Of a DNA stretch of 49,599 nucleotides, positions 19,469 through 23,469 are shown piece by piece (positions within the stretch are counted from its first letter, which is position 1; each line of letters starts with the position of its first letter). The translations under genes and the position numbers were made by a program. The DNA comes from an uncultured Clostridia bacterium. Its GTDB lineage: Bacteria; Bacillota; Clostridia; Christensenellales; UBA1242. The DNA is taken from positions 1-49,599 of the forward strand of contig CALVMU010000009.1 in the NCBI GenBank assembly GCA_944348085.1, read 5' to 3'. The notes below the pieces were generated by a model. The model saw only the letters and a list, made by a program, of their open reading frames with translations, did no database searches and was not told the origin of the DNA.

Positions 19469-19499
19469 ATTCTTGCGTTACACAAAGGAGAAAAAATAT

Positions 19500-20240
19500 A
19501 TGAAAAGGCTATGGAAAAAGTTTTTGTGCTTTTTGATTTTGCCAATCGCTTTGATAGCTGTTGGATGCACAAATTCAGCAAGCAATGACGATGGAAATTC
19601 TACTCAAATTGAAAATGAAGTAAAGCCAGGTGATGGCCAAGAAGACCCGCCAATTGATATGCCAGATAATGATTCAACTGAAGAGTTGCCAACTGAGCCA
19701 GAAACTCCAGCCGAACCAGAAGAGCCAACCGAGCCAGAGACTCCAGCTGAGCCAGAAGAGCCAACTGAGCCAGAGACTCCAACTGAGCCAGAGACTCCAA
19801 CTGAGCCAGAAGAGCCAACTGATGAACCAACCGAGCCAGAGATAACTCAATATACAATAACTTTTGAGATTGTTACAGCCTTTGAAGATTTTATCACCAA
19901 AGAGTGTTTTGATTGTCCTATGGAACTGACAAAGTTGCATCCAGAATTTGAAATAGAAAGCAATGAAGGAATGGTGCAATATATTTCAAAAGATTTTGGA
20001 ATGACACAATATGCAATACACTTTAAAAACAAAGATGGCAAAGCGATTGTGACAACCGAGAAAGACGGCAAACAATATCTTGAGTTTGATTTTTATCACA
20101 CCGCAATGAACGATGTATATTTTTCAATCAATGGCGAGGAGTATCGAGTGGAAAACAGTGGAGGAATGGTATTCAAGCAGACATTCAGGATTGAAATATC
20201 AGAAAACTCAACATTTTCACTGGACCTAGACAGAATGTAA
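19500..20240 (+). CDS. Lipoprotein with Pro/Glu/Thr repeat stalk, unknown function
   Basis: The 246-residue product has a lipoprotein signal (1-23, I-A-V-G-C, Cys23 lipidated), a short low-complexity spacer, a roughly 50-residue TEPETP/AEPEEP repeat stalk (about 66-115), and a C-terminal domain of about 125 residues containing two Cys and several beta-like strands. The stalk would span the cell wall and present the C-terminal domain outside. I chose ATG 19500 because an AAAGGAG site sits just upstream; the longer frame from 19473 starts within that leader. It has its own promoter and a strong terminator. The terminal domain is not recognised. Confidence 0.8.
   Translation: MKRLWKKFLCFLILPIALIAVGCTNSASNDDGNSTQIENEVKPGDGQEDPPIDMPDNDSTEELPTEPETPAEPEEPTEPETPAEPEEPTEPETPTEPETPTEPEEPTDEPTEPEITQYTITFEIVTAFEDFITKECFDCPMELTKLHPEFEIESNEGMVQYISKDFGMTQYAIHFKNKDGKAIVTTEKDGKQYLEFDFYHTAMNDVYFSINGEEYRVENSGGMVFKQTFRIEISENSTFSLDLDRM
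19696..19845 (+). repeat. In-frame tandem repeats encoding the TEPETP stalk
   Basis: About ten near-identical 15-base units (GAGCCAGAGACTCCA and variants with GAAGAG) lie in tandem. Differences are mostly single bases. Copy number is likely to vary by slippage while keeping the frame. Confidence 0.85.
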
Positions 20241-21743: not shown

Positions 21744-22988
21744 TTAATTAGAATAGTTAGAAATTTTTACTTTTAAAAAGGTTTTCTTACCTTTTTTGAC
21801 AATTATTTCTTTTTTTGTTAGGTTAATGTTCTCATTTATGCTCTGAACTTTTTTGTCATCAATCATAATTCCATTTTGCTCAATAAGACGTCTTATCTCG
21901 GATTTTGAATTGAATATTGAAAGTCGTGAGAGAAAATCAATAACATTTATAACCCCAGATAGATTAACTTCTTCGGTTGGCATGTTTTCATCGGCTTTGC
22001 CATTTGAAAAAAGTTCTTCGCTTGTTTTTCTTGCTTTTTCAGCTTCAACCTCGCCGTGAACAAGTTTTGTCACTTCAAACGCCATAAGTTTTTTGGCTTT
22101 CACAATATCTTCTTTACACATTCTTTGAATTTCTTTGACATCAATCTTTGTGAAAAATCTTAAAAGTCTTTCAACATCGGCATCAAGACAATTTACAAAA
22201 TGTTGGAAGAAATCAAACACTGATGTTTTGCTTCTTGACACCCATAAGGTTCCTTTTTCTGTTTTGCCCATTTTTATTCCTTCTGCATTTGTGAGAAGTG
22301 GACAAGTTAAACCCATCATAAGAGGTCTTTCAGTTCCGTCTTTAAAATTCATTTTTCGGCTAAGTTCTGTTCCTGCAACGATGTTTCCCCATTGGTCAGA
22401 GCCACCAATTTGTAGAACACAGCCGAATTTGTCATTAAGATGAACAAAATCAAAGGCCTGCATAAGCATATATCCCATTTCCATAAAGGTCAATCCACCT
22501 TGTTTTAATCTATTTTTGTACAGGTCTTTTTTAAGCATTTCGCTGACATTAAAGTTAACACCAACATCACGAAGAAAGTCGATGTAAGTTATGGTCTTTA
22601 GCCAATCGGCATTATCAACTATAATTGCAGGGTTTTCACCGTCAAGCACGATGAACCTTTCAAGAAGTCCTTTAATTTCTTTTGCATTGCGAGAGACTTC
22701 TTCTTTTGAAAGCATTTTTCTCATATCGGTTTTGTTACTCGGGTCGCCAATAAGAGCTGTTGCTCCGCCAATAAGAACAATACATTTATGTCCACAATCT
22801 TGTAATATTCTTGCCATTTGGAGCCCAAAAAAATGACCAATGTGTAGGTCATCGGCTGTCGGGTCGATGCCGATGTAAAAGGTTATAGGACCTTCACTTA
22901 AAATTCTTTTTGTTTCTTCCAAGTTTGTTGCTTGAAAAACAAATCCTCTATTTTCGAGCTGCTCAAAAGCATTATTTTTAAATTTCAT
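21744..22988 (-). CDS. tyrS: Tyrosyl-tRNA synthetase
   Basis: This 414-residue class Ic synthetase charges tRNA-Tyr with tyrosine. The HIGH motif appears as DPTADDLHIGHFFGLQM, the KMSKS loop as KMGKTEKGTLW, and the C-terminus carries an S4-type RNA-binding domain (about 345-410). Length is normal for bacterial TyrS. The start ATG 22988 has AAGGAG (22995-23000) at good spacing. Upstream on the minus strand lies an unusual regulatory leader with a Tyr-codon-rich peptide and two terminators; a tRNA-Ser gene lies further upstream in the same direction. This is the regulated gene of that leader. Confidence 0.97.
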   Translation of the reverse strand: MKFKNNAFEQLENRGFVFQATNLEETKRILSEGPITFYIGIDPTADDLHIGHFFGLQMARILQDCGHKCIVLIGGATALIGDPSNKTDMRKMLSKEEVSRNAKEIKGLLERFIVLDGENPAIIVDNADWLKTITYIDFLRDVGVNFNVSEMLKKDLYKNRLKQGGLTFMEMGYMLMQAFDFVHLNDKFGCVLQIGGSDQWGNIVAGTELSRKMNFKDGTERPLMMGLTCPLLTNAEGIKMGKTEKGTLWVSRSKTSVFDFFQHFVNCLDADVERLLRFFTKIDVKEIQRMCKEDIVKAKKLMAFEVTKLVHGEVEAEKARKTSEELFSNGKADENMPTEEVNLSGVINVIDFLSRLSIFNSKSEIRRLIEQNGIMIDDKKVQSINENINLTKKEIIVKKGKKTFLKVKISNYSN

Positions 22989-23007
22989 AATTAACTCCTT
23001 TTTATTT

Positions 23008-23079
23008 TCAAATTTTTATTAAAATTAAAATTGTTTTCACGCCCAAACGGGCGTATGCTCTAAAAATAAATCTTTTCAT
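23008..23079 (-). CDS. Second small leader ORF before tyrS (23 residues)
   Basis: A 24-codon frame with ATG at 23079, six bases after AAGGAG, encodes MKRFIFRAYARLGVKTILIL plus three residues and ends at TGA, eight bases before the tyrS ribosome site. It lies after both leader terminators, so it is read only when they are passed. Its coding sequence contains a GC-rich hairpin (ACGCCC/GGGCGT, 23039-23054). It may couple translation to tyrS. Expression is unproven. Confidence 0.4.
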   Translation of the reverse strand: MKRFIFRAYARLGVKTILILIKI

Positions 23080-23091
23080 AAAAACTCCTTA

Positions 23092-23129
23092 TAATAAAAA
23101 ATCTGCCATAAGTTTTCACTCGTGGCAGA
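23092..23129 (-). terminator. tyrS leader terminator 2 (strands 4:5)
   Basis: On the minus strand TCTGCCA (strand 4 side, 23123-23129) pairs with TGGCAGA (strand 5, 23102-23108), with an inner AGT/ACT extension, followed by TTTTTTATTAT. Strand 4 (CTGCCAC, 23122-23128) is also fully complementary to the end of strand 3 of terminator 1. Confidence 0.8.
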
Positions 23130-23132
23130 CTT

Positions 23133-23172
23133 AAAATAAAAACTGCCACATAGCGATTTTGCTATATGACAG
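23133..23172 (-). terminator. tyrS leader terminator 1 (strands 2:3)
   Basis: On the minus strand CTGTCATATAGC (23172-23161) pairs with GCTATGTGGCAG (23154-23143) over 12 bp including two G-U pairs, with a 6-base loop and the U-rich tail TTTTTATTTT. Its 5' arm is the target of the antiterminator strand. Confidence 0.85.
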
Positions 23173-23224
23173 ATGTTTTTAGATTTAATTATTTGCGCCC
23201 ACAAAAACTCCTACATATAGCATT

Positions 23225-23272
23225 CTATTTGTAGTAGTAATAATATGAGTTGTTTGCAAATAATTTTTTCAT
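23225..23272 (-). CDS. tyrS leader peptide with five consecutive tyrosines
   Basis: A 16-codon frame encodes MKKLFANNSYYYYYK and stops at TAG. It has an AAGGAT ribosome site (23277-23282) and lies just downstream of a plausible promoter. Five Tyr codons in a row (TAT TAT TAC TAC TAC, 23245-23231), a very rare composition, sit directly ahead of tyrS. This is the expected sensor of charged tRNA-Tyr, by analogy with the Phe-rich PheM leader of E. coli pheST. Confidence 0.85.
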   Translation of the reverse strand: MKKLFANNSYYYYYK

Positions 23273-23306
23273 TTTTATCCTTATGTAAATATTTCTTTTA
23301 TTATAT

Positions 23307-23334
23307 ATATTACGTTTATAATGTAACGATGCAA
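23307..23334 (-). promoter_or_regulatory. Probable promoter of the tyrS leader
   Basis: -35 TTGCAT (23329-23334), 16-base spacer and -10 TAATAT (23307-23312) on the minus strand, giving a start about 25 bases before the leader-peptide ATG. Read-through from the tRNA-Ser promoter is also possible because no terminator separates them. Confidence 0.5.
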
Positions 23335-23344
23335 TATATAAAAT

Positions 23345-23432
23345 TGGCGGAGAGATAGGGATTCGAACCCCAGGATGCTTTCACATCAACGGTTTTCAAG
23401 ACCGCCGCTTTCGACCGCTCAGCCATCTCTCC
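23345..23432 (-). tRNA. tRNA-Ser (anticodon UGA)
   Basis: The 88-base minus-strand gene folds into a class II cloverleaf: acceptor GGAGAGA/TCTCTCC, anticodon loop CTTGAAA with anticodon TGA, a long variable arm as expected for serine, T-loop GGTTCGAATCC, discriminator G and an encoded CCA. It reads UCA and related Ser codons. It lies just upstream of the tyrS leader in the same direction. Confidence 0.95.
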
Positions 23433-23469
23433 ATAAATTTTTTTGTGCTCTTTTTTGAAGAACACTCTC

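Follow-up and report, generated by a model that had tools for sequence, protein, structure and literature searches.

A putative tyrosine-codon leader-peptide attenuator ahead of a second tyrosyl-tRNA synthetase gene in an uncultured Clostridia bacterium

The 5' region of a tyrosyl-tRNA synthetase gene (tyrS) of an uncultured Clostridia bacterium appears to be a ribosome-mediated transcription attenuator that measures Tyr-tRNA, a reading to which we assign a probability of roughly 0.9 from comparative sequence analysis. The locus lies on contig CALVMU010000009.1, of which a stretch of 49,599 nucleotides was analysed as a whole (the window). Its anatomy, conservation, compensated base pairs, the matching of leader codons with the downstream gene and a geometric fit support this reading, and the region very probably functions as a sensor of Tyr-tRNA. 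The mechanism class is already known, also from Firmicutes (his genes, ilv); new are the tyrS variant and a second small reading frame, ORF2, between the attenuator and the gene.

Architecture of the tyrS upstream region

Ahead of tyrS stands a short open reading frame with clustered cognate codons and a ribosome-binding site, its stop codon 236 nt from the gene, and two intrinsic terminators (T1 and T2) lie in between (Table 1). An alternative helix of strands 1 and 2 (1:2) would act as antiterminator against T1 (2:3), and the 5' arm of T2 is able to pair with the 3' arm of T1 (3:4). T2 is absent from the sites returned by a simple terminator scan of the region. Of 3000 dinucleotide shuffles, 7 produced an exact complement of at least 9 nt linking the 14 nt directly 3' of the stop codon to positions +31 to +72, and the fold of the 302-nt leader has a z-score of −6.86, equalled in stability by 0 of 100 shuffles.

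A preliminary description of this DNA, made from its letters alone, had proposed a leader peptide with Tyr codons and a ribosome site ahead of tyrS, and a strand 1 that pairs without mismatch with the 5' arm of T1, but had given no strand. Both features are found on the minus strand, strand 1 being the exact complement of strand 2, and the downstream gene is confirmed as tyrS by its match to TIGR00234 (388.5 bits; cut-off 113.8). The stop codon, which had been placed three bases before strand 1, needs a small correction, as TGCTATATG starts two bases after it, and position 23102, at which the proposed element ended, is explained as the end of T2. The attenuator as such is retained here; ORF2 had been left out, and tyrS is one of two such genes in the genome.

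Table 1. Features of the tyrS upstream region, with positions in the window.
Feature	Position	Strand	Basis
Promoter-like site GTTACA-16-TATAAT, ahead of the leader	23300..23327	minus	predicted; 10/12 consensus match
Leader ORF Shine-Dalgarno-like (SD) site AAGGA, 5 nt 5' of the ATG	23278..23282	minus	sequence
Leader ORF MKKLFANNSYYYYYK*, 15 codons, Tyr codons 10-14	23225..23272	minus	ATG at 23272, stop TAG 23227-23225
Strand 1 TGCTATATG, 5' strand of the antiterminator	23214..23222	minus	perfect complement of strand 2; covariation
Strand 2 CATATAGCA, common to antiterminator 1:2 and terminator 2:3	23160..23168	minus	5' arm of T1
Terminator T1 (2:3), 12-pair stem, then U-rich tail TTTTTATTTT	23143..23172	minus	terminator scan; covariation
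Terminator-like hairpin T2 (4:5), T run after it	23102..23129	minus	folding, reading; covariation
ORF2 MKRFIFRAYARLGVKTILILIKI*, own SD AAGGAG, Tyr codon 9 at hairpin	23008..23079	minus	reading; relatives
ORF2 hairpin ACGCCC-GTTT-GGGCGT, adjoining Tyr codon TAC 23055-23053	23039..23054	minus	reading
tyrS, tyrosyl-tRNA synthetase, 414 aa, type A	21744..22988	minus	TIGR00234; tree

We propose the following mechanism. With Tyr-tRNA plentiful, the ribosome would reach the stop codon of the leader and cover strand 1, T1 would form, and T2 would catch the read-through of T1. With Tyr-tRNA short, the ribosome would stall on the Tyr codons and leave strand 1 free to pair with strand 2 once this is made; T1 would thereby be blocked and tyrS transcribed by read-through. 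A freed strand 3 that pairs with strand 4 might in addition by-pass T2. As the controlled gene is usually the second tyrosyl-tRNA synthetase (TyrRS), the device may serve to raise the supply of TyrRS when charging of tRNA-Tyr by the housekeeping enzyme falls short. Attenuation by stalling on Tyr codons, as the preliminary description had put it, agrees with the conserved Tyr run, the covariation of 1:2 and 2:3, the lack of a T-box match and the codon-gene matching detailed below.

Conservation of the leader among relatives

The tyrS of the window belongs to a type (type A) represented by 22 loci (the window, L007 and L032-L051), of which L046 is unreadable, its sequence beginning 15 nt 5' of the gene. 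The leader is present in 20 of the 21 readable loci, which bears out the expected conservation of the Tyr run in related tyrS upstream regions. All 20 leaders consist of 15 codons with the run at codons 10-14, the exceptions within the run being Cys at 13 in L035, Gly at 12 in L044 and Trp at 12-13 in L048; across all 24 distinct leaders found before tyrS only, the 15-codon length occurs in 21. L033 lacks the leader. Upstream of its tyrS there is a different terminator-like hairpin (ATTGCCG/CGGCAAT) with a copy of the 3' arm on its 5' side, and some other device may have taken over from attenuation at this locus.

On the tree, which excludes L051, the type-A clade is supported at 100/99 and comprises 21 rows, 19 with a leader, and the sister row L013 has none. 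The leader label requires 5 changes (the labelled rows include L014 with an unrelated leader), which indicates that the leader was gained, lost or moved more than once.

At E <= 0.01, 35 of the 309 genomes of the family, belonging to 10 of 42 genera, had a match to a covariance model spanning the ribosome-binding site to T1 (R1). All 35 places were read; 10 were already known under other identifiers and 25 were new. Two of the matches (L096 in G044, L097 in G172) are not leaders on reading, the leader matches in G235, G109 and G296 end at a contig edge, and G176 has a leader without a recognisable tyrS behind it (L081, G176:C11:38601-38744). The frame of this last copy runs beyond the usual stop, and it is probably decaying. 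A related leader precedes six tyrS of another type, 49-51% identical (G116, G287, G078, G057, G098 and G129), and a seventh such gene in G140.

The class-level scan (391 genomes) gave two matches besides the host genome, both rejected, and the order-level scan (396 genomes) gave, outside the family, L105, L106 and the rejected L107 only. L105 (G627:C116) and L106 (G388:C26), which belong to other families of the order, carry Tyr/Phe-rich leaders (MKKNIIANAFYYFYFYGFNKS and MKKTFVYASYYYAYGYYYRSRSFNMR) with a terminator before the genes for DAHP synthase and prephenate dehydrogenase, respectively; we judge these leaders to be of independent make. Model matches in G623 (L107), G1000 (L111), G881 (L112) and G005 (L205) were read as unrelated or coding. 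A plus-strand match of models R1 and R2 in the window (23057-23179) overlaps T1 and T2 and was ascribed to the reverse complement of these symmetrical hairpins.

Leader codons follow the downstream gene

Codon specificity tracks the regulated gene, and this codon-gene matching is the best evidence for an attenuator. The same scaffold stands before tryptophanyl-tRNA synthetase genes (trpS) in G123, G188, G049, G297:C8 and G306:C14, identified by TIGR00233 for L101 and by the common start GDRPTG for the other loci. Each of the 24 distinct tyrS-only leaders has at least three Tyr codons and no Trp codon, and all five distinct trpS leaders carry Trp, always at codon 12. An exact test of this contrast gives 8e-6, a value that ignores relatedness, the leaders being related sequences and the counts not independent. 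Left out of the count were G235, G109, G296 (MNIIINKAVYYWYYI) and G176, all four without a readable gene, L014 (unrelated leader) and the operon L048. In L048, the sole tyrS-trpS operon found, the leader reads YYWW and trpS starts 21 nt after tyrS; no trpS stands downstream in the other loci among the 19 type-A loci on named contigs (323 to 3000 nt of downstream DNA checked). Comparatively this is a strong sign of codon sensing, amino-acid-specific sensing being the simplest reading, and would amount to a natural codon re-programming of an attenuator.

A further model, R3, matched 36 of the 309 genomes at E <= 0.02, with eight new places, all of which were read: the trpS loci of G297:C8 and G306:C14, the tyrS of G140, the rejected L205 and four loci with other codons. 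One of these, L202 (G129:C122:1725-1797), is a His-codon cassette before a radical-SAM-like gene (weak matches only), followed by a gene read as ileS. L206 (G113:C18; R3 E 4e-4) and L203 (G137:C19; 7e-3) hold a similar attenuator with Ile/Leu/Val runs upstream of the gene for a large protein, which in L203 has 619 aa and no Pfam or NCBIfam match. L201 (G018:C7:4957-5040) resembles the scaffold more loosely and comprises a leader with Met codons (MEKAKGLAIFFMGMHTGYCV) and a terminator directly 5' of metA (PF04204).

Base pairing and covariation

The 8 pairs of the antiterminator are 99.5% paired over 27 sequences (215 cells), as compared to at most 59.9% in slid versions. Two pairs are compensated and 4 invariant, and 7 of 500 shuffles reach as many compensated pairs; that there are only two is due to the near invariance of the 8-bp core. 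The flanking bases, 5' of GCTATATG and 3' of CATATAGC, co-vary as well, C going with G in 5/5 rows and T with A in 15/15; of the remaining 7 rows, one has A-T, one G-T and five are unpaired. T1 together with a hairpin of the codon run, in which CTACA of the Tyr codons pairs with TGTAG, is 94.4% paired with 8 of 14 pairs compensated, a value as high as in 0 of 500 shuffles; in L048, where Trp codons replace Tyr codons, the partner strand is altered to match. T2 is 97.1% paired with 3 compensated pairs (2/500 shuffles). An antiterminator mutually exclusive with T1 thus has modest comparative support.

The expectation that strands 1:2, 2:3 and 3:4 would all covary is borne out for the first two by compensated changes and fails for the third: for the 3' arm of T1 with the 5' arm of T2, alignment A1 showed no covariation above shuffles on three measures (253/500 as good). 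By eye, both sides are changed in L039 (TGGTAG with CTACCA), a locus displaced in the automatic alignment. We regard the 3:4 relay as a hypothesis.

Ribosome geometry and folding model

In the 27 leaders measured, 0-7 nt separate the stop codon from the GCTATATG core downstream of it. The leading edge of a ribosome reaches 15 nt beyond the first base of the P site, and this general value was used for the geometry. With codon 12 in the A site, 2-9 nt would be left 5' of the core (27 leaders), and a ribosome at the stop codon would overlap it by 3-10 nt in 27/27; in the model, a ribosome on the control codons would hence free the antiterminator strand and one at the stop codon block it.

In folds of the nascent RNA modelled up to, but not including, strand 3, the antiterminator has a probability of at least 0.5 in 27/27 leaders with the ribosome at codon 12, in 1/27 at the stop codon and in 19/27 without a ribosome. 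The corresponding probabilities for the window are 1.0, 0.12 and 0.02; a default-off state without translation would thus hold for the window but fail for most relatives, in which the antiterminator would form early. At equilibrium with the whole terminator, the antiterminator outweighs T1 in 12/27 leaders at the first Tyr or Trp codon, 14/27 at codon 12, none at the stop codon and 4 without a ribosome. In the window T1 wins (antiterminator versus T1 0.38/0.62 at codon 12, 0.03/0.97 at the first Tyr codon). As equilibrium favours T1 in many leaders, the modelled switch requires that antiterminator or terminator be chosen while the RNA is still being transcribed. This is the case in classical attenuators.

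ORF2, a candidate second sensor

Between T2 and tyrS, a pattern TAYGCCC...GGGC occurs in 19 of the 20 leader-bearing type-A loci (not in L043) and in the leaderless L033. An SD-ATG precedes the hairpin in 18 loci (not in L007 and L033) and is in frame with the Tyr codon in 17/18, at 18, 21 or 24 nt; in L048 the first SD-ATG meets a stop at once and the next ATG is in frame. That the spacing varies in threes argues for translation. The hairpin pattern has three occurrences in the host genome, one of them at the window locus, and a like reading frame, MIELSCLKI-Y-APWGNIEI, lies upstream of L089, a tyrS of another type.

In every locus with the hairpin, the codon directly adjoining it matches the amino acid of the first leader: Tyr at the type-A tyrS loci; Trp at the trpS locus L204 (MKILLKL-W-PERAKS; one locus only); His in L202 (MEFIYRKT-H-AHQGR...; one locus only), where the first leader MLKNFNSTSYHFSHIV has two His codons; and in L048 a Tyr hairpin followed further on in frame by a Trp hairpin (T-W-PRNGAN). 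The remaining four trpS loci have ORF2-like frames that terminate in YW, YWN, YWRN or YWQKK and lack the hairpin; in L103 the frame is without a clear SD.

From this comparison, ORF2 is probably a second, single-codon sensor of the same amino acid as the leader. A ribosome waiting at the cognate codon might hold the hairpin open or be a roadblock, e.g. against 5'-3' decay. We tentatively go further and, at close to an even chance, consider two serial sensors of different principle, attenuator and ORF2 codon-hairpin, as one portable cassette in which the codons of both frames are rewritten together (Tyr, Trp, His, Tyr plus Trp); ORF2 would then be a new kind of element, a tiny GC hairpin kept open solely by a ribosome paused at the cognate codon. 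Alternatively, and with a chance somewhat short of even, ORF2 and its GCCC/GGGC hairpin serve as mRNA stabiliser or translation-coupling frame only, with no sensing. A consensus fold from ORF2 to tyrS showed no conserved structure, alternative pairing or terminator, and the missing hairpins in L043 and in four of five trpS loci point the same way; the match of the hairpin codon to the first leader in all versions named above argues against it. If ORF2 is a sensor, it is a compact one and the most novel part of the system.

Other explanations of the upstream region

The two hairpins could also be ordinary tandem terminators of the transcript of a tRNA-Ser gene that lies 5' of the leader on the same strand (23345-23432), with a chance reading frame, tyrS having its own promoter at T2 or further downstream. 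Overlapping T2 just 5' of ORF2 is a weak promoter-like site (GTGAAA-17-TATTAT, 23119-23091, minus strand, 9/12), which, if used, would by-pass both terminators; promoter-like sequence was also read near the tyrS start in several relatives. The site has little weight, as the scan found 4 promoter-like sites in the region as compared to 2.8 in shuffles, and no minus-strand site was found by the scan between it and tyrS. No tRNA precedes the leader in 17 of 18 relatives scanned (L038 has a tRNA-Gly), and a conserved reading frame, strand 1 and compensated pairs are unexpected for a plain terminator. We therefore consider this explanation very improbable.

Inducible antibiotic-resistance genes (e.g. 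MsrD) can likewise be preceded by a leader ORF and a terminator, so that the leader could answer ribosome-targeting antibiotics or a general slowdown of translation (erm or ABC-F type) instead of Tyr-tRNA. That codon identity follows the synthetase (Tyr for tyrS, Trp for trpS, both in the operon), and that length, codon run and stop position are kept while the residues 5' of the run vary, leaves little room for such a role.

The least probable explanation is direct binding of tRNA-Tyr by a T-box, intact or degenerate, with the small frame being incidental. T-boxes do occur in the host genome and before other tyrS of the family, but Rfam finds none in window or leader and the frame is kept as a frame whose codons track the amino acid of the downstream gene. 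The check for a T-box (RF00230) was negative for the whole window at the gathering score and for 22900-23460 among the 17 matches listed up to E = 10. These comprise the tRNA-Ser and 16 matches below the gathering score (among them Thr_leader, 14.9 bits, and a trpB motif, 22.5), which were dismissed.

Among the upstream regions of 80 other tyrS of the family, a T-box core was found by pattern in 25, two further hits (L113, L135) having been dropped as GGTGGCAACG; a stricter pattern had no match in the family tyrS upstream regions. Rfam at E <= 0.05 reported a T-box in 11 of 20 chosen tyrS regions, two above the gathering score, and at the gathering score none in 20 larger loci, though L018 and L031 carry the core. 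A short Tyr-rich reading frame was flagged in 9 of the 80 regions, and two of the nine, L014 (MKLMQKSYYYYYKI) and L145, were judged leaders followed by a terminator. Within one family, tyrS thus alternates between T-box, leader peptide and neither.

Relation to known systems

The leader pheM of E. coli pheST and the trp and his operon attenuators combine a cognate-codon leader peptide with mutually exclusive antiterminator and terminator, and the Tyr-tRNA attenuator proposed here is alike in both respects. It differs in that strand 1 follows the stop codon and pairs directly with the 5' arm of the terminator, and in that a further terminator and ORF2 lie downstream of T1. Vecchione and Sello reportedly found in 2010 that an auxiliary tryptophanyl-tRNA synthetase of Streptomyces coelicolor is under ribosome-mediated attenuation. 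By that account it is likewise a second, inducible synthetase behind a cognate-codon leader peptide and terminator, although in Actinobacteria and for Trp. We know of no ORF2 module in that system, nor, unlike in the S. coelicolor case, of an inhibitor linked to the TyrRS of the window type.

The Tyr T-box of Firmicutes also controls tyrS according to the charging state of tRNA-Tyr (excerpts of PMC2494555); the T-box senses the tRNA directly and was not found at the window locus. Histidine leader peptides were predicted before hisS paralogs in bacilli (Naville and Gautheret, 2010; PMC2965389), again an attenuator instead of a T-box before duplicated Firmicutes synthetase genes; these have His codons, and the available excerpts mention neither codon re-targeting between genes nor a second sensor ORF. 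Leaders with His runs stand before his genes in three Firmicutes lineages (excerpts of PMC9413887). They resemble the present leader in their consecutive cognate codons (three to five), terminator and antiterminator, but serve histidine-related genes and not a Tyr tRNA synthetase. The ilv-leu operon of S. aureus has a leucine-rich attenuator peptide with genetic support (excerpts of PMC5794164), also in a Firmicute, but for a biosynthetic operon and with branched-chain codons. The predicted ribosome-mediated attenuator uORFC-8-2 before cysS in Rhodobacterales shares the synthetase gene and tandem cognate codons, but belongs to Alphaproteobacteria and Cys (excerpts of PMC8632094). Further precedents are aroF in Acholeplasma (same excerpts) and trpS and leuS in Streptomyces (excerpts of PMC1262725).

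The preliminary description was aware of no leader-peptide attenuator for a Firmicutes tyrS. We met none in a search of PMC, a result that is not proof of absence, the subscription literature being mostly outside its scope; other Firmicutes genes have precedents (his, ilv). The joint occurrence of 'tyrS' and 'leader peptide' in the excerpts of PMC1262725 is a reference title, and in those of PMC9413887 a gene cluster with HisR2.

Genomic context

The host genome (1.06 Mb, 28 contigs, 98% complete) has a second tyrS (L002, G000:C15:12863-14086), 49% identical to that of the window. Reading of the 500 nt upstream of it revealed a plain promoter and neither leader nor T-box, and it has no Rfam match at the gathering score. 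Four T-box matches elsewhere in the genome, one above the cut-off, stand before genes read by eye as pheS, ileS, thrS and glyS; the lineage, with a genome reduced to about 1 Mb, thus has T-boxes on other synthetase genes, yet what appears to be a leader-peptide attenuator on its second tyrS.

The N-terminal domain of prephenate dehydrogenase (PF02153) has no match in the host genome and is matched in 14/14 control genomes. The bacterium is a probable tyrosine auxotroph; given this result in a 98% complete genome, Tyr is probably imported and can run short.

Named relatives with a type-A tyrS are uncultured Clostridia, Clostridiales, Clostridium or Christensenella. Another tyrS is also present in 9 of 11 type-A genomes examined, and none was found in G071 and G136. 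Type A was not seen plasmid-borne, each of 113 plasmid records with a TyrRS match having its best place below 60% identity. On the plus strand of the window, a lipoprotein-like ORF (19473-20240) contains a repeat region of the TEPETPAEPEEP type.
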